From the NCBI GenBank assembly GCA_021299095.1, contig JAJTFW010000061.1, positions 1-33,770 on the forward strand: 33,770 nucleotides of DNA. Reading direction: 5' to 3'. Shown here piece after piece: positions 8,082-28,488 of the stretch; position 1 is the stretch's first letter, and every line of letters begins with the position of its first letter. A program made the translations under genes and the position numbers. Under the pieces are notes generated by a model. It saw only the letters and a list, made by a program, of their open reading frames with translations, did not search any database and was not told where the DNA came from. The DNA comes from Sphingobacteriales bacterium. Lineage in GTDB: Bacteria > Bacteroidota > Bacteroidia > AKYH767-A > OLB10.

Positions 8082-8228
8082 ACCCCTTGTTGTGTAGGAA
8101 TTTCGGGGTGACCCTTGTGGTTGACATTGGGTGTCACAACCTGATATTTAATTACTGGAAATGGTTAGGGTTTTTATGCTTGTTTTCAGAATAAAAAACG
8201 TATGTCAGTTGTGCGGAATGACTGTGTT

Positions 8229-14274: not shown

Positions 14275-15879
14275 TCAATAGTGACCGCGTGAATGAATCG
14301 CTGTGGCCACTTTGCCAAGTGCGAAGATGTAGGCAGCGATACGCATGGAGACCTTGTGTTTCTGCGCAACGTTCCAAACATTCTGGAAAGCCTGGCGCAT
14401 CCAGCGGTCGGCACGGCGGTTGATTTCCTCTTCGCTGTAGTAGTAGCCGGTGCGGTTCTGTACCCACGCGAAATAGGAAACAGTCACACCGCCTCCGTTA
14501 GCAAGAATGTCCGGTATGATGACAACACCCTTCTTGTTCAATACCTCATCCGCTCCCGCAGAAGTCGGTCCGTTGGCGCCCTCTACAATCAACTTGGCCT
14601 TGATGCGGGATGCATTCTCCATCGTGATCTGGTTCTCCAGTGCACAGGGGGCAAGGATGTCGACATTCAGCTCGAGCAATTCTTCGGGCTTAATCGGGCT
14701 TGCACCTTTAAAGCCCTTCAGGACGCCACCATTCTTGGCACAATACTCCATGGCCTTGGCGATATCGATTCCTTTGGGATTGAAAAACGCGCCGGTGTGG
14801 TCAGATACTGCAACCACTGTGATGCCGTTTGTTTCGAAGTGCTTGGCTGTAATTGATCCAACGTTGCCGAATCCCTGTACAGCCGCCTTCATTTTCTTCG
14901 GGTTGAGCTTGAGTTTGGTCAAAGCCAGGTGCAGGGGCTTTCCGGTTACAACACCGGGAGTGAATCCTCCGTTAACTTTGGAGTATTCGTCCACGATCCA
15001 GGCCATTTCGCGTCCGCTGGTGTTCACATCGGGTGCGGGAATGTCTTTGTCAACGCCGAAAATATCGGCCATGGCGGCCGTATATGCACGGGTGAGTCGC
15101 TCGATTTCGCCGACACTCATCGTTTTCGGATCGCAGGTGATACCGCCTTTTGCTCCACCGTAAGGGATGTCGGCGATGGCGCACTTGAACGTCATCCATG
15201 CAGCCAACGCTTTAACCTCATGCTCGTCGACCTGAGGATGGTAGCGGATTCCGCCTTTGCTCGGTCCGAGTGCAGTGGAGTGGATTACACGGTAGCCTTC
15301 AAACACGCGGATACTGCCATCATCCATTTTGATCGGCAGACTCACTTCAACCAGCTTACTCGGGGTTTTCACGATCTGGTACACATCCTTATCGAGGCTC
15401 ATGATTTTCGCTGCCTGATCGAGGCGGCTAATCATGGCATCGAATGGGTTGAGTGTTTCCTGCACTTTGGCACTGGCGAGTGCCAGACTCTGTGCACCCT
15501 TGCGGATGAATTTGTCGGGTTTGGCCAATAAGGTCTTATTGATGATGCCAACCCGGTCGTCGTCGGACATGATGATGACTTCGCACTTGGGAGCGGCCTT
15601 TCTCAAACGGGAGGCCACCTTATCGCCATTCATGGCGGTTTTTACTTTTGAATTCAGGTAATAATCGACAAAGGCCATGACGGGTTGTGTTTTTCCCATT
15701 TTGGCGATGCACTCCTCTCCGGTAGAGAAGGTGCGGATTTCACATCCGGTGGTTGTGGATTCGAGGTGATCCTTCAACAACTCCAGCTGGAGCTTGTCGT
15801 CTTCAATAACGAAAATCAGGGGTTGCGCTTTCTGCACTTTGGCAGCCTTCGTCTTCTTCGAAATCTTGGTGATGGCCAT
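14275..15879 (-). CDS. Response-regulator receiver domain fused to Glu/Leu/Phe/Val dehydrogenase
   Basis: This 534-residue protein has a CheY-like receiver domain at about residues 20-135. Its acidic pocket is E26-D27-D28 in FVIEDDKL, the phosphoacceptor candidate is D72 in AFVDYYLN, the switch residue is S105 in IIMSDDD, and the lysine is K127 in KFIRKG. A helical linker (131-160) leads into a complete glutamate-dehydrogenase-type enzyme (about 145-534). Substrate/catalytic residues are K208 in GPSKGGIRYHP, K232, K244 in PYGGAKGG and D284 in PAPDVNTS. The Rossmann motif is VQGFGNVG (335-342). The reaction is oxidative deamination of an amino acid, probably glutamate, with NAD(P). The receiver suggests that phosphorylation controls activity or assembly. 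No histidine kinase is nearby. Neither domain shows damage, and the single open frame argues against an artefactual fusion. The psd gene follows. Confidence 0.9.
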   Translation of the reverse strand: MAITKISKKTKAAKVQKAQPLIFVIEDDKLQLELLKDHLESTTTGCEIRTFSTGEECIAKMGKTQPVMAFVDYYLNSKVKTAMNGDKVASRLRKAAPKCEVIIMSDDDRVGIINKTLLAKPDKFIRKGAQSLALASAKVQETLNPFDAMISRLDQAAKIMSLDKDVYQIVKTPSKLVEVSLPIKMDDGSIRVFEGYRVIHSTALGPSKGGIRYHPQVDEHEVKALAAWMTFKCAIADIPYGGAKGGITCDPKTMSVGEIERLTRAYTAAMADIFGVDKDIPAPDVNTSGREMAWIVDEYSKVNGGFTPGVVTGKPLHLALTKLKLNPKKMKAAVQGFGNVGSITAKHFETNGITVVAVSDHTGAFFNPKGIDIAKAMEYCAKNGGVLKGFKGASPIKPEELLELNVDILAPCALENQITMENASRIKAKLIVEGANGPTSAGADEVLNKKGVVIIPDILANGGGVTVSYFAWVQNRTGYYYSEEEINRRADRWMRQAFQNVWNVAQKHKVSMRIAAYIFALGKVATAIHSRGHY

Positions 15880-19400: not shown

Positions 19401-20975
19401 GTGAAAAACACCTCATCATCGTTTAAAACCGATATCCAATCCGGGCTCGTTGTTTTCCTGGTAGCGTTGCCCCTTTGCCTGGGAATTGCACTTGCTAGCG
19501 GTGCTCCATTGTTTGCCGGGATCATTGCCGGCGTAGTGGGCGGCATCGTTATTGGGCTCCTGAGTGACTCGCAGCTTAGTGTGAGTGGCCCTGCGGCGGG
19601 ACTGACAGCCATCGTGCTGGCAGCTATCACTAGCCTGGGTTCCTACGAGGCCTTCCTCGCTGCAGTTGTCATTGGTGGCTTGTTTCAGATCCTTCTCGGT
19701 GTTGCGCGTGCCGGTGCCATCTCCAATTATTTTCCCTCCAACGTAATCGAGGGCATGCTTACGGCGATCGGGGTTATTATCATTCTGAAGCAGCTGCCTC
19801 ATGCGGTGGGATATGATGTCGATAATGAAGGCGATTTTTTCTTCATTGAAAAGGGAACCGGTCACAACACCTTTTCGGCCCTCATTGATGCTGTGAACTA
19901 TTCCCACCCAGGAGCCATCATCGTGACGGTTGTATCGCTTACCATCCTCATCGCCTTTATCAAAGTCCCCCTCCTGAAGCGAATCAAGGTAGTGCCGGGA
20001 GCCCTCGTGGCCGTCATCTCCGGTGTCGCTCTCAATACCTGGTGGAGTGCCAGTGGGTCAAGCCTTGCTATCGGTCGGGACCACCTCGTAAACCTTCCTG
20101 TTCCAGCCGATTTCAACGCGTTTTTTGCACAATTCACCACGCCGGAGGTTTCGGCTTTCCTGCGACCTGAGGTATGGATTGTTGGTGCAACACTGGCCGT
20201 TGTAGCCAGCATTGAGACCTTGTTGTGTGTCGAGGCGGCGGACAAGTTGGATACTCAAAAACGATTCACGAATACAGACAGGGAACTGTATGCACAAGGT
20301 GCAGGCAACCTGATCAGTGGATTGATTGGTGGCTTACCCATGACTTCTGTCATCGTACGAACATCTGCCAATATCAATGCAGGCGCTCAAACCAAGACCA
20401 GCACCATTGCCCATGGTCTATTCCTGTTGTTGGCCGTGGTGACGATTCCCTTCGTATTGAATCAGATTCCTCTTGCATGTCTTGCTGCGGTACTCCTTCA
20501 AACCGGCTTCAAGTTGGCCAGTCCTCGCGTGTTCCGACACATGTGGTCTAACGGACGATTGCAGTTCATTCCATTCTTCGTGACTGTAATCGCTGTCGTG
20601 TTTACCGATCTGCTTCGCGGTGTAGCCGTTGGTCTGGTTGTGAGCGTATTCTACATCCTCCGGGCCAACATGCGACTTTCCTATTTCTTTTCGCGTGAGC
20701 AATACAATGCTGGAGAAAAAATAGTGATGCGTTTAGCCCAGGAAGTTTCCTTCCTGAACAAGGCGGCCATCAAAAAAACCTTGCGGGAGATTCCCCGTGG
20801 TGCCGCCATCGAAATCGATGCCAGCGAGACCGCCTACATCGACCACGACGTACTCAATCTTATCCGTGATTTCGTTTCATCTACCTCAGTTGAAAAAGAA
20901 ATCAGTGTAACCCTCACCGGTTTCAGGGAGCATTATTCCATTGCGCAATCCCTGCCGCATGTCACAATTCAATAA
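19401..20975 (+). CDS. SulP-family anion transporter, likely bicarbonate-type
   Basis: This 524-residue inner-membrane transporter starts at GTG 19401, the only start that keeps the first helix complete. The N-terminal cytoplasmic stub leads into DIQSGLVVFLVALPLCLGIA, a SulP hallmark, then SVSGPAAGLTAIV and about 12 further membrane segments. GNLISGLIGGLPMTSVIVRT is the conserved substrate-site region. The C-terminal part (about residues 455-520) is a shortened STAS domain with AIEIDASETAYIDHDVLNLI. SulP proteins carry sulfate, bicarbonate or other anions. The carbonic anhydrase gene 21 nt downstream favours bicarbonate, since SulP-carbonic anhydrase pairs and fusions are known. Substrate assignment is inference. 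Confidence 0.9.
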   Translation: MKNTSSSFKTDIQSGLVVFLVALPLCLGIALASGAPLFAGIIAGVVGGIVIGLLSDSQLSVSGPAAGLTAIVLAAITSLGSYEAFLAAVVIGGLFQILLGVARAGAISNYFPSNVIEGMLTAIGVIIILKQLPHAVGYDVDNEGDFFFIEKGTGHNTFSALIDAVNYSHPGAIIVTVVSLTILIAFIKVPLLKRIKVVPGALVAVISGVALNTWWSASGSSLAIGRDHLVNLPVPADFNAFFAQFTTPEVSAFLRPEVWIVGATLAVVASIETLLCVEAADKLDTQKRFTNTDRELYAQGAGNLISGLIGGLPMTSVIVRTSANINAGAQTKTSTIAHGLFLLLAVVTIPFVLNQIPLACLAAVLLQTGFKLASPRVFRHMWSNGRLQFIPFFVTVIAVVFTDLLRGVAVGLVVSVFYILRANMRLSYFFSREQYNAGEKIVMRLAQEVSFLNKAAIKKTLREIPRGAAIEIDASETAYIDHDVLNLIRDFVSSTSVEKEISVTLTGFREHYSIAQSLPHVTIQ

Positions 20976-20996
20976 TTTCAAATCAGAAAAACCTCC

Positions 20997-21683
20997 ATGA
21001 AAGTGCATACATCCGAAACCCAAAAGACCATCTCCCCTGACAAAGCCCTGACTATTCTCAAAGAAGGGAATGAGCGATTTGTCAACAACCTTCGTGTAAA
21101 CAGAAACCTGCTTAAGCAAGCCAACGAAACCCGCGATGGCCAATGGCCCTTTGCCGCTATTCTGAGTTGTATTGATTCGCGTACATCGGCCGAGCTGATT
21201 TTTGATCAGGGCCTGGGGGACGTGTTTTCTATCCGCATTGCCGGGAATGTTGTCAACACCGATATCATCGGAAGCCTGGAGTTTGCCTGCAAAGTGGCCG
21301 GATCCAAGCTTATTGTTGTGCTGGGGCACACCGGGTGTGGCGCAATAAAAGGTGCCTGTGATCACATTGAGATGGGAAACCTGACTGAGCTTTTATCGAA
21401 AATTCAGCCTGCGGTTTACGAGGAGCGCGCTACAGCGGATCCTGGAAAACGCAATGGATCAAATCCCGAATTCGTGTACAATGTGACTGAGTTGAATGTG
21501 AAGCGGACCGTTCGCTCCCTGGTGAACCGATCCTACATTCTTGAAAAGATGATTGAGAGCGGAGAAATCGCCATTATCGGCGGCATTCACCATTTGGATA
21601 CCGGTGTGGTAAATTTCCTGCCTGATACATGGATTTCTTCAGCTGCCGATATCCATGCACAGCCTGTGGATGCGGGTAAATAA
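20997..21683 (+). CDS. Beta-class carbonic anhydrase
   Basis: This 228-residue enzyme interconverts CO2 and bicarbonate. The Zn ligands are visible: C58 with the D60-R62 catalytic dyad in ILSCIDSRTSAE, then H111 and C114 in VLGHTGCGAIKGA. The helical start (SPDKALTILKEGNERFV) is the usual beta-carbonic anhydrase lead-in. There is no signal peptide, so it should be cytoplasmic, where it can hydrate or dehydrate carbon moved by the SulP transporter encoded 21 nt upstream. It is tail-to-tail with the acyl-CoA dehydrogenase gene (21-nt gap). That gap holds only a weak AACAAG/TTTGTT dyad, so no firm terminator is called. Confidence 0.95.
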   Translation: MKVHTSETQKTISPDKALTILKEGNERFVNNLRVNRNLLKQANETRDGQWPFAAILSCIDSRTSAELIFDQGLGDVFSIRIAGNVVNTDIIGSLEFACKVAGSKLIVVLGHTGCGAIKGACDHIEMGNLTELLSKIQPAVYEERATADPGKRNGSNPEFVYNVTELNVKRTVRSLVNRSYILEKMIESGEIAIIGGIHHLDTGVVNFLPDTWISSAADIHAQPVDAGK

Positions 21684-24770: not shown

Positions 24771-26921
24771 TTAGTCGCGGACAATTCGCAGTGTGCGGCT
24801 GTTGCCGGACTCGTCGCGAATCTCAAGCAAATAGGTGCCCGCTTCGAGCGATTTCATTTCCAGCCTGGCATCCCGGTTGAAGCGAAGCGGCGCAACGACC
24901 AGTTTTCCGCTTAAATCCATCACCTGCAAGGTATAATCTCCCGCTCTGAGCAGGTCTATGCTTAGCTCTCCACCTGTCGGGTTGGGGTAGGCTCGGATGG
25001 TGTTTCCGGGCTGCAGTTCGTCCAGTCCCACCGCCGAAACGGTATAGCAGGCAGAAGTATCGGTGCATCCGTTACGGGTAACTTGAAGCGCATAGTTGCC
25101 GTTCGAGGTCGGCGTGAAAGATGCAGCTGTTGCACCGCTGATTTGGGCGAAGTTGTTGTTGCAGTTGAGCCATTGGTAACTTGCGCCAACTACATTGACG
25201 CCACTCAATGTGGTTCCGTTCAGAGAAACGCTGGTGTCGGGTGTGCCTACAAAGAGGATTCCAACACCGGAGGTCAGACTTAGACCACAGTCAACGGATA
25301 CGATGCAGCGGTAGAAGCGGTTGTTGAAGGTTGTACTCAATCCTGTTAGACTTAGGGTTGGGCTGGTAGCGCCACTATACACACCTCCGTCACTGATGTT
25401 GGTCCACACGATGCCGCCATTGGTGCCTTCCTGCCATTGGAAACTGGGGTTTTGTCCGCTGGCTTGCACCGTAAAGCTCGTGTTACCGCCGGGGCAAGTA
25501 CCTCCGCTGGCAGGCTGACCGGTGAGTTGGGGATAGGTACACTCTCCGTATCGGCAGAAAAAGGCATCCGTACCACTAACCTGCGCGAGGTTGTTGGCAG
25601 GATTCAAGGGCTCGAAATAACAAATCGAACCACCATAGTATCCCGCTAAGCAGAAATCGCCACTACTATCGAATGCGATGCCACGCATGTAATCGAGTTG
25701 CACGGATCCGATTTTATAAGCCCAGATGAGCTGCCCATTCACGGGGTTGTATTTAGAGGCAAATCCGTCGCGGTTGCCGTAGGAACGCAACCAAGGGTCC
25801 TGGATGGATGGGGTGAAGTCAGCCGAGTCGAGGAATTCGCCCAACAGGTAAGGCTCACCGGCAGCATTGGCCCGTACTCCGCGGGCGTTATCAACGCCTG
25901 TACCGCCCACTGTGGTCGCCCAGTTTAGTAGGCCGTTATCCTGCATGGAATCGGCATTTCCGTTGAAGATGCCCATGGCATAGGTTGTTGTACCAACCGT
26001 TGTCAGCGAGTTTAAATTGTCGGTGCCATTTCCTCCGAATGACCAGGAGGCCTGATAGGTGCCATCGTTCGCGTATCGAGCAATGAAACAATCGGTCTGC
26101 GTCCCGGCCGTTGTTAGCGATGTCCCGGTGATCGAGTCTGTAATGAGTGATCCGCTGAAGTTCCCGCCTACTACAATCCTGTCCTGCGCGTCGATGGCGA
26201 TACTACGCATGTAATCCGAATTTGGTCCCTGTAGGCTCTTCCCCCATAGGATGGAACAAGTACTATCGAGTTTCAGAATGAAGGGTTCATACGTGAACCC
26301 ACTACCGACGCTGTTGTACAATATCAGGCCAGCTCCGATGTCGACTGATGGACTTCCGAATTCACCACTGAGGTATACATTGCTTTGGCTGTCGAAAGCC
26401 AAGCCTTCAATGTAGTCGGTATTGGCTCCAGCTGCGGTGTAGCCGTGCAGGAAGTTTCCATCCGAAGTGTATTTCGCGAGGAATCCGTCAATGCCCGCCA
26501 CTGAACTTACATTGGTCGAATCGGGACCCGGATCAAGGTCCATGGTCTGAGTAAAATCACCTGCCAGATAGAGATTACCTGCTACATCGATGCGCATCGC
26601 ACGCACGTTTTTGCTTCCTATGCCGCTCAGGGATTTAGCCCAAACCAAAGCACCTTGGTTCGAATATTTCGCTAGAAAGATATCGCTGGATGTTCCTGTA
26701 GCCGTGAGGTTGAATACGGTCGTGCCCGGATCAAAATCGCAAATTCCTGTAAAGCGCCCCGAAACATAGAGATTTCCGGAGGCATCGGTTTCAATCAAAT
26801 CCGCGTAGTCGGTTCCGGAACCGGCAATGCGTCCTTTTATATCGAAAACAGGCACCTGTTGTGCACTTGCGGTCAGGGTGAATAGAAGTAGAGCGATGTA
26901 AGTTATACGTAGGCTTTTCAT
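24771..26921 (-). CDS. Secreted SBBP-repeat beta-propeller protein with T9SS type A sorting domain
   Basis: This is a 716-residue exported protein. The ATG at 26919-26921 starts the signal peptide (MKSLRITYIALLLFTLTA, cleavage after SAQ); a start 20 codons upstream would overlap the porin terminator. Residues of about 20-460 are SBBP-type propeller repeats with the pattern IDVAGNLYLAGDF, FDSQSNVYLSGEF, IDAQDRIVVGGNF and FDSSGDFCLAGYY, each followed by FLAKY- or FIARY-like strands. An Ig-like, Cys-containing module follows (about 470-560) with FQWQEGTNGG and RFYRCIVSVDCG, then a second one. The last roughly 80 residues are a T9SS type A domain (IRAYPNPTGGELSID, SLEAGTYLLEI). The ligand is unknown. 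It resembles the 1381-5745 protein in layout but not in repeat family. Confidence 0.85.
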   Translation of the reverse strand: MKSLRITYIALLLFTLTASAQQVPVFDIKGRIAGSGTDYADLIETDASGNLYVSGRFTGICDFDPGTTVFNLTATGTSSDIFLAKYSNQGALVWAKSLSGIGSKNVRAMRIDVAGNLYLAGDFTQTMDLDPGPDSTNVSSVAGIDGFLAKYTSDGNFLHGYTAAGANTDYIEGLAFDSQSNVYLSGEFGSPSVDIGAGLILYNSVGSGFTYEPFILKLDSTCSILWGKSLQGPNSDYMRSIAIDAQDRIVVGGNFSGSLITDSITGTSLTTAGTQTDCFIARYANDGTYQASWSFGGNGTDNLNSLTTVGTTTYAMGIFNGNADSMQDNGLLNWATTVGGTGVDNARGVRANAAGEPYLLGEFLDSADFTPSIQDPWLRSYGNRDGFASKYNPVNGQLIWAYKIGSVQLDYMRGIAFDSSGDFCLAGYYGGSICYFEPLNPANNLAQVSGTDAFFCRYGECTYPQLTGQPASGGTCPGGNTSFTVQASGQNPSFQWQEGTNGGIVWTNISDGGVYSGATSPTLSLTGLSTTFNNRFYRCIVSVDCGLSLTSGVGILFVGTPDTSVSLNGTTLSGVNVVGASYQWLNCNNNFAQISGATAASFTPTSNGNYALQVTRNGCTDTSACYTVSAVGLDELQPGNTIRAYPNPTGGELSIDLLRAGDYTLQVMDLSGKLVVAPLRFNRDARLEMKSLEAGTYLLEIRDESGNSRTLRIVRD

Positions 26922-26949
26922 TGGCTTAATAATGTCACGCAATGATAAC

Positions 26950-26974
26950 AAAAAGGGCGGGATTGCTCCCGCCC
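26950..26974 (-). terminator. Rho-independent terminator after the porin gene
   Basis: On the minus strand GGGCGGGA pairs perfectly with TCCCGCCC around a 4-nt loop and is followed by TTTTTGTT. It lies 22 nt past the porin stop codon and before the SBBP/T9SS start, so the two genes are probably separate transcripts. Confidence 0.8.
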
Positions 26975-26995
26975 CTTGCATGGGTGTGTGGTTAC

Positions 26996-28219
26996 TTAAA
27001 AATTCAATTGTGCCTGCAAACGAAGGAGTTGGCCTTTTTGAAAGTTGTCCTGGATTTTAAAGTCTTCGAAGCGGCGGGATGAAATGGTGTACATGGCTAC
27101 GAACTCGAAGTTTTTGGAAGGTTGCCATTCGACACCTATTTCAGTCTCCTCCACACGATAACTTCTGGCATCCAGTTCGTGTTTCTTTCCGCCATCGTAG
27201 GTTTGCCAACGGGCAAAGGGAAAAACAACATGTTTTCCAATGTTTGTTTTGTAATTGATCATCACGTACCCGCCCTTTAGGTTCCTAGTTTCGATGGAGT
27301 CGGTGGCCGTGTTGAACTCAGGACCTTTACCGATGTTGTACTCGGCCATGATACCGAATGGTTTCGGATACAAAACGAAAGTTGCAGCGGCACGTTCATC
27401 GAGGTATTGGTAGTCGCTTGCGACCTTGGTTCCGGTACTGATTTGATCTTTCGGAATGACAAATCGCCCTGTATATGCCTGTGCCCCCGGCTCTATCAAT
27501 TGGCTGCCTATGGCAATGGGGTAGGTCACACGGGTAACAATGTGTTGGTTGTTGTTCAGTTCGGGTTTGTTGGCAGTTTGACCATTGTAGACGCCGATGC
27601 CGAAGATGCCATAATCCCCCGATCCTTTCAAACCTTCAGCTACCAAGCTCGAATACAGTTTGCGAATTCGCTCTGGAGCATAATAGAAAATCACACCCAG
27701 GTCGCGTTCGTTGCTCAGTGCACTATTCAAGGCATCTGCACGGTCAAGCGGAAGGCGGTTCTGGGAGCTTTGCAAGTTTTCAAATCCGAATGGTATCTTA
27801 CTTTGACCAATGCGGAACCTGAATTCATTTTTCGGATCAACACCAATGTCGAAGTATGCATCGCGCAGCTGTGTGAAGTGCAGGCTGGTAGAACTTACTG
27901 AACTTGCAAAATCGGGCTGAATGTAGAAATAGACCTGTTTTGATAGTTGTCCGAACCAAATGATACGCACCCGACGCAGGAAGAATCCGCCGTTGTCGCC
28001 CCAGCTGCGGTCACATTGTTCGCAGCGCAAGTCAGGATTGGTTTCGAGCAGGCGGTTGTAACGGGCCTGAACATAGCCGCGTAGACTCATCGATTCATAC
28101 CACTTTTTTGGGGTTTCCTTTTTGATGGTGTCGGTAGTTGTCTGAGCGTTCGTCACCATCGAGGTAATCAGCAGTAGCGCTACCAGCGCTAGACTTTTGA
28201 TTCTTGGCTGTGATGTCAT
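26996..28219 (-). CDS. Outer-membrane porin of the O/P (phosphate-selective) family
   Basis: This is a 407-residue outer-membrane barrel with signal peptide (LALVALLLITSMVTNAQ). The barrel pattern resembles porin O/P: SLRGYVQARYNRLLETN near the start, FFLRRVRIIWFGQLSKQVYFYIQPDF, then RFRIGQSKIPFGFENLQSSQ (cut here to its core), RDLGVIFYY, and the terminal strand LLRLQAQLNF ending in phenylalanine. The family takes up phosphate or polyphosphate in Pseudomonas, but homologues in Bacteroidota are often untested. The Cys pair in LRCEQCDRSWG is unusual for a porin. Upstream lie 11-bp-phased TTAACA-like repeats that look like PHO boxes and fit a phosphate role. A strong terminator follows. Confidence 0.85.
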   Translation of the reverse strand: MTSQPRIKSLALVALLLITSMVTNAQTTTDTIKKETPKKWYESMSLRGYVQARYNRLLETNPDLRCEQCDRSWGDNGGFFLRRVRIIWFGQLSKQVYFYIQPDFASSVSSTSLHFTQLRDAYFDIGVDPKNEFRFRIGQSKIPFGFENLQSSQNRLPLDRADALNSALSNERDLGVIFYYAPERIRKLYSSLVAEGLKGSGDYGIFGIGVYNGQTANKPELNNNQHIVTRVTYPIAIGSQLIEPGAQAYTGRFVIPKDQISTGTKVASDYQYLDERAAATFVLYPKPFGIMAEYNIGKGPEFNTATDSIETRNLKGGYVMINYKTNIGKHVVFPFARWQTYDGGKKHELDARSYRVEETEIGVEWQPSKNFEFVAMYTISSRRFEDFKIQDNFQKGQLLRLQAQLNF

Positions 28220-28330
28220 TTTATGGAATTGTTATGATGTGATTAGGTAAGGATATTCCAATGTTGAGACAGAAGATCAGTTTCATCTCTGATAGACTCG
28301 CTGTAGCTTCTCTGATTCTTGCTTTTGGTC

Positions 28331-28338
28331 CAAATAAA
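28331..28338 (-). promoter_or_regulatory. Candidate -7 box (TTTATTTG) for the porin gene
   Basis: The minus strand reads TTTATTTG, one base from TAnnTTTG, about 110 nt before the porin ATG. Its position, 17 nt from the nearest TTAACA-like repeat, suits an activator-dependent promoter whose -33 element is replaced by the repeats. Confidence 0.35.
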
Positions 28339-28354
28339 TCGCAGAACAAAGAAC

Positions 28355-28451
28355 TTAACATTGATTTAAGTATTCCTTAACGAAAATCAATCATAACCAT
28401 ATCTTAATGAAAAGGCTATCTCCTTAATGTTTTGGTAACATTCGGGTAACG
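28355..28451 (-). promoter_or_regulatory. PHO-box-like cluster of 11-bp-phased repeats upstream of the porin
   Basis: Plus-strand hexamers recur exactly 11 nt apart in three groups. The first is TTAACA 28355, TTAAGT 28366 and TTAACG 28377. The second is ATAACC 28393 and TTAATG 28404. The third is TTAATG 28424, GTAACA 28435 and GTAACG 28446. PhoP/PhoB boxes are tandem TTAACA-like or CTGTCAT repeats with an 11-bp period. The region lies between the thiolase stop and the porin start, so only the porin is an obvious target. The hexamers are on the strand opposite to the porin message. Confidence 0.5.
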
Positions 28452-28488
28452 GAACTTCGATCCGTTTAAAGGGGCAAAGCGGATGATT

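Follow-up and report, generated by a model that had tools for sequence, protein, structure and literature searches.

A phased repeat array upstream of a Porin_O_P family gene in a Sphingobacteriales bacterium, probably a PHO-box operator of PhoB

The DNA analysed here, hereafter the window, is a stretch of 33,770 nt from a Sphingobacteriales bacterium, in which an array of short repeats is located in a 269-nt gap (28220-28488) with a porin gene on one side and a thiolase gene on the other. As the thiolase gene lies upstream on the same strand as the porin gene, this gap can serve the porin alone. The features of the region are the following:

24771..26981, - strand: T9SS-sorted beta-propeller protein, ORF of 736 aa, possible second gene of the porin transcription unit
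26996..28219, - strand: Porin_O_P family outer-membrane porin (PF07396), 407 aa, presumed target
28331..28338, - strand: TTTATTTG, the -7 box of the original prediction, present, not conserved in congeners
28347..28351, - strand: CTTTG, candidate -7 element, conserved in the genus
28355..28382, + strand: PHO-box group 1, TTAACA, TTAAGT and TTAACG at 28355, 28366 and 28377, in 11-nt steps
28393..28409, + strand: PHO-box group 2, ATAACC and TTAATG at 28393 and 28404, one 11-nt step
28424..28451, + strand: PHO-box group 3, TTAATG, GTAACA and GTAACG at 28424, 28435 and 28446, in 11-nt steps

The product of the presumed target gene matches the Pfam profile PF07396 with an E-value of 2.7e-28 and 99.7 bits (gathering cut-off 20.9), in agreement with the O/P-family assignment of the original prediction; "phosphate-selective" is a family name only, and selectivity of this porin is putative. 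A structure model of the porin (pLDDT 76) displays a beta-barrel with the general-porin fold, and a fold search with this uncertain model returned OprP (2o4v) at rank 7 with a TM-score of 0.58, similar to OmpF-type porins; a sequence search of the PDB found no relative of the porin. Since the model resembles general porins and OprP about equally, selectivity is not inferable from it, and its uncertainty is too great for pore residues such as an arginine ladder to be assigned. The T9SS beta-propeller gene downstream may be co-transcribed with the porin gene, and a weak box pair (26915-26936, + strand; dimer score 10.7) is found near its start. Elsewhere, the window encodes a glutamate dehydrogenase fused to an N-terminal response-regulator receiver domain (14275-15879, - strand; PF00072, E 7e-11, residues 22-131), an unusual arrangement, as well as a SulP-family anion transporter (19401-21683, + strand) that adjoins a carbonic anhydrase, likely forming a bicarbonate uptake pair.

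All eight hexamers and their 11-nt steps, first described in the original prediction, were recovered on the + strand at the positions listed above; steps within groups are exactly 11 nt, and those between groups are 16 nt (28377 to 28393) and 20 nt. Only the hexamers at 28355, 28377 and 28435 match TTAACA with at most one mismatch, and the remaining five of the eight differ at two positions, a degeneracy that counts against the reading favoured below. The pattern TTAA-N7-TTAA-N7-TTAA without mismatch has its sole occurrence in the 2.51 Mb genome here, and group 3 is one of four one-mismatch sites genome-wide. The array is absent from the output of direct and tandem repeat finders, which are blind to the boxes because the spacers differ.

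Genome-wide, 12 one-mismatch TTAA trimers were identified, one of them directly upstream of phoB-phoR on contig C38 and another on contig C72, upstream of a gene encoding a Lys-rich protein of 119 aa that is followed by ppk1 and ppx; moreover, the divergent pstSCAB-phoU operon is preceded by its own run, TTAACC/ATAACA/TAAACG/GTAATC. Thus, the genes for the regulator, the transporter and polyphosphate metabolism share the phased motif. The generic TTAA pattern itself is not enriched (26 matches versus 18 for the reversed pattern in each of two genome scans), hence isolated matches carry little weight, and the evidence lies in which genes carry the motif and in its conservation; generic trimer and dimer patterns were dropped as sole evidence, given the similar forward and reversed counts. 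Regarding the genes at these sites, pstS appears as two same-frame ORFs split by an in-frame stop near 8217 (L016, 7767-8726, - strand), either a sequencing error or a pseudogene, and the Lys/Ala-rich 119-aa protein located between the PHO boxes and ppk1 (L018, 5767-6126, - strand) had no match in a Pfam search, its basic tail suggesting a possible polyphosphate- or DNA-binding partner.

Conservation was assessed by searching 61 genomes of the class for porin orthologues and phoB homologues, and by counting pairs of TTAACA hexamers with at most one mismatch each. Only nine of these genomes, own included, yielded a porin orthologue, and the nine upstream regions contained 16 pairs at 11 nt versus 1.1 expected, with a further peak at 22; in 28 phoB upstream regions there were 36 such pairs versus 2.1 expected, again with a peak at 22 and with one at 33 that was clearest in this set. 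The upstream regions of the control gene purB displayed a flat spacing profile without an 11-nt peak. Few boxes were found in the first 350 nt upstream of ppk1 of relatives, since other genes often precede ppk1 in the operon, and extending the region to 1500 nt recovered boxes. Furthermore, a larger set of 80 porin loci from named genomes, Pedobacter cryophilus, Hymenobacter arizonensis and Telluribacter humicola among them, was compared with 324 other intergenic regions of similar G+C from the same contigs. The porin upstream regions contained 125 pairs at 11 nt (4.57/kb versus 0.46/kb in the controls, about tenfold), with strong spacing peaks at 11, 22 and 33 nt; a phased pair was present in 54 of the 80, compared with 31 of the 324 controls, and a phased triple in 19 and 3, respectively. 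The controls displayed a small 11-nt excess only, and about one third of the porin orthologues had no phased pair by this simple test. Because these loci share descent, the counts are not fully independent and P values are nominal, the control being drawn from the same genomes. Within the genus, comparison of three congeneric species indicated that upstream conservation falls on the boxes, with their 16/11/11 spacing, and on CTTTG; group 1 and the first two boxes of group 3 are conserved in two congeners, and the 16-nt step between groups 1 and 2 is kept in both (G001 and G003). The outcome that would have spoken against the original prediction, a lack of conservation of hexamers or spacing in close relatives, was therefore not observed in the two congeners or the 80 orthologues; its claim that period and sequence are PHO-box-like agrees with the presence of the motif before phoB, pstS and ppk1 and with the spacing peaks of the porin set.

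A matrix trained on 104 upstream regions, all outside the genus, yielded the consensus [CG]TTAACA[AT]T. Among 67,498 positions in the window, 28424 ranks first and 28355 second as matrix dimers, and the order is reversed for trimers; group 1 is the best trimer in the window (16.0), group 3 the best dimer (17.0), and group 2 scores 9.0 as a dimer. In relatives, 11 of 28 ppk1 upstream regions scored at least 15 with the matrix, compared with none of 26 for purB. That TTAA has clustered here by chance, the intergenic region being AT-rich, would agree with the generic pattern being nearly as common reversed as forward; nonetheless, in 1000 dinucleotide shuffles the intergenic maximum was reached by one for the dimer and by none for the trimer, and the boxes keep their position and spacing in congeners and their 11-nt peak across the 80 orthologues. 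We regard this explanation as having a next to negligible probability, and the conservation tests refute it in practice. As a separate observation, phased trimers scoring 16.1 and 15.3 (L017, 5594-5621 and 6823-6850; G000:C53) precede two adjacent genes of unassigned function; a Bacterial Ig domain is encoded by one and a T9SS sorting domain by the other, and the N-termini of the two products resemble each other. These genes are possible further Pho targets.

The conserved element CTTTG (28351-28347) lies 4 nt past the box at 28355, and on the coding strand the distances from the starts of the TTAA cores to its TTTG are 8, 19 and 30 nt. The original prediction had placed the -7 box at TTTATTTG; the sequence is present at 28338-28331, but it is out of register and, whereas CTTTG is conserved, it is not conserved in congeners, so it was rejected as the -7 element and CTTTG is the better candidate. 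In related promoters with coding-strand boxes, the TTTG core keeps a register to the boxes: in 36 of 64 cases TTTG falls at 8 mod 11, which corresponds to 19, 30 or 41 nt counted from the nearest hexamer (nominal P about 3e-20); the register is 19 nt in the own pstS and phoB promoters. Judged by their flanks, the boxes of the window read against the direction of the porin gene, versus the coding strand in most orthologues (43 vs 11), yet their 19/30-nt register to TTTG fits a coding-strand reading. A single PHO operator, with [CG]TTAACA[AT]T recurring at 11-nt intervals and positioned 19+11n nt from the TTTG of the -7 element TAnnTTTG, may be common to the class Bacteroidia and perhaps to all Bacteroidota, occurring in either orientation before the same porin gene, with a switch of strand and retention of the register in the genus of the window; we consider this proposal evenly balanced.

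The PhoB of this genome is an OmpR-family protein whose gene is next to phoR and the pst operon on contig C38; in the alignment to 1GXP, E. coli PhoB has an almost identical recognition helix (drtvdvhirrlr versus drtidvhirkir here). Several defining features of a PHO box are present: at least two direct repeats with an 11-nt period in the array, the same motif before core phosphate genes (phoB, pstS and the ppk1 operon), conservation in orthologous promoters, and a cognate PhoB-PhoR system with a conserved DNA-recognition helix. A further feature, a fixed spacing to the promoter core, is seen in the related promoters as a group and in the own pstS and phoB promoters, but is ambiguous for the porin gene of the window, where orientation and register disagree. 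Because the same 11-nt motif precedes the phosphate genes of this genome and the same porin gene in dozens of relatives, we read the array as a PhoB site; very probably, the region is a PHO-box operator bound by PhoB that most likely activates the porin at low phosphate, the porin feeding PstSCAB. Binding of the boxes by a different OmpR/PhoB-family regulator, e.g., one with an ArcA-like motif, is quite improbable: OmpR-family proteins generally bind tandem sites, and the motif reported for Riemerella PhoP is ArcA-like and has 583 peaks, many without phosphate function (PMC9603813), but the motif studied here preferentially marks phoB, pstS, ppk1 and the porin gene, not purB, and control intergenic regions are nearly free of the 11-nt excess.

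The genomic neighbourhood points to a function as well. Of the 80 loci, 12 have genes of the pst system within 10 kb of the porin gene, and another 4 have phoB or phoR but no pst there (16 of 80 in total), for a chance expectation of about 0.5 by our own estimate for a single gene (20 kb of a genome of about 3.5 Mb); in G020 the porin gene is divergent from phoB. This synteny with pst/pho supports a putative part of the porin in phosphate uptake. We infer that phosphorylated PhoB would bind head-to-tail in front of the porin gene, on 11-nt repeats whose core is [CG]TTAACA[AT]T; when phosphate is scarce, bound PhoB would most likely activate porin transcription, and the porin would let phosphate through the outer membrane for uptake by PstSCAB. 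The boxes might instead be PhoB sites that serve to repress or just to adjust porin expression, or at which binding has no effect, in line with the non-coding orientation of the boxes in the window, with the many transcriptionally inert, mostly intragenic sites of E. coli PhoB (PMC10294691), with a B. fragilis porin that falls at low Pi (PMC3547664), and with an unresponsive F. johnsoniae porin (PMC8115612). This appears unlikely, as the location of the boxes, ahead of the conserved CTTTG and with the 19/30-nt register that the own pstS and phoB promoters share, is expected for an activator, and the porin gene is syntenic with pst. Several points count against activation by PhoB, our preferred reading: the degenerate boxes, the conflict between flanks and register in the window, which leaves its core promoter ambiguous, the F. 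johnsoniae and B. fragilis porins just named, the third of orthologues lacking a phased pair, and the small number of genomes with an orthologue.

Bacteroidota matter for phosphorus cycling in the gut, in soil and in wastewater, and their PHO operators are poorly defined: in the accessible parts of the reports, PhoB binding is described without a box in B. fragilis, and a core hexamer in Riemerella. In the former, PhoB controls ppk (+24-fold), exopolyphosphatase (+42-fold), porin O (BF0375, +3.55 in the wild type and -2.70 in the phoB mutant) and pst, whose promoter it binds, and a second porin (BF2289) went down (PMC3547664); this parallels the gene set described here, but a box sequence was not found in that part of the account. 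Riemerella anatipestifer, of the same phylum, has an autoregulated PhoP with the same core as in the window, TTTAACA by DAP-seq, and with EMSA on its own promoter; unlike here, a direct-repeat period, a promoter register and a porin target were not found in the accessible part of the account (PMC9603813). Fjoh_0542 of Flavobacterium johnsoniae, an OprP-family porin encoded in the phoBR operon, is not Pi-induced (PMC8115612). Beyond the phylum, the Pho boxes of cyanobacterial SphR consist of at least three tandem copies of CTTAACCT separated by 3-bp linkers, which makes the repeat unit 11 nt long (PMC1906773). They share with the window the 11-nt period, the TTAAC core, three tandem units and the location upstream of pst and other phosphate genes, and differ in their last bases (CTTAACCT vs [CG]TTAACA[AT]T), phylum and promoter type, and in that both orientations are seen here. 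The PhoP boxes of Bacillus subtilis are TTAACA-like repeats with 11-nt spacing, the same hexamer and period by consensus, and differ by their Gram-positive sigma-A promoter.

The PHO box of E. coli PhoB likewise consists of 11-nt direct repeats (crystal 1GXP; PMC4415409). The similarity extends to the near-identical recognition helix and the short distance upstream of the promoter core. The core of the E. coli box is CTGTCA-like, which differs from that described here, and in Bacteroidota the -7 element TAnnTTTG stands in place of the -10. In view of the B. fragilis, Riemerella, F. johnsoniae and SphR reports, the array adds a well-supported case to a type of operator already described, the core TTTAACA having been reported for Riemerella PhoP; it links a well-conserved group of orthologous porins with phosphate uptake, and the addition to these systems is a phylum-level matrix and the -7 register, which, with the period and flanks, allow Pho regulon prediction across the phylum.
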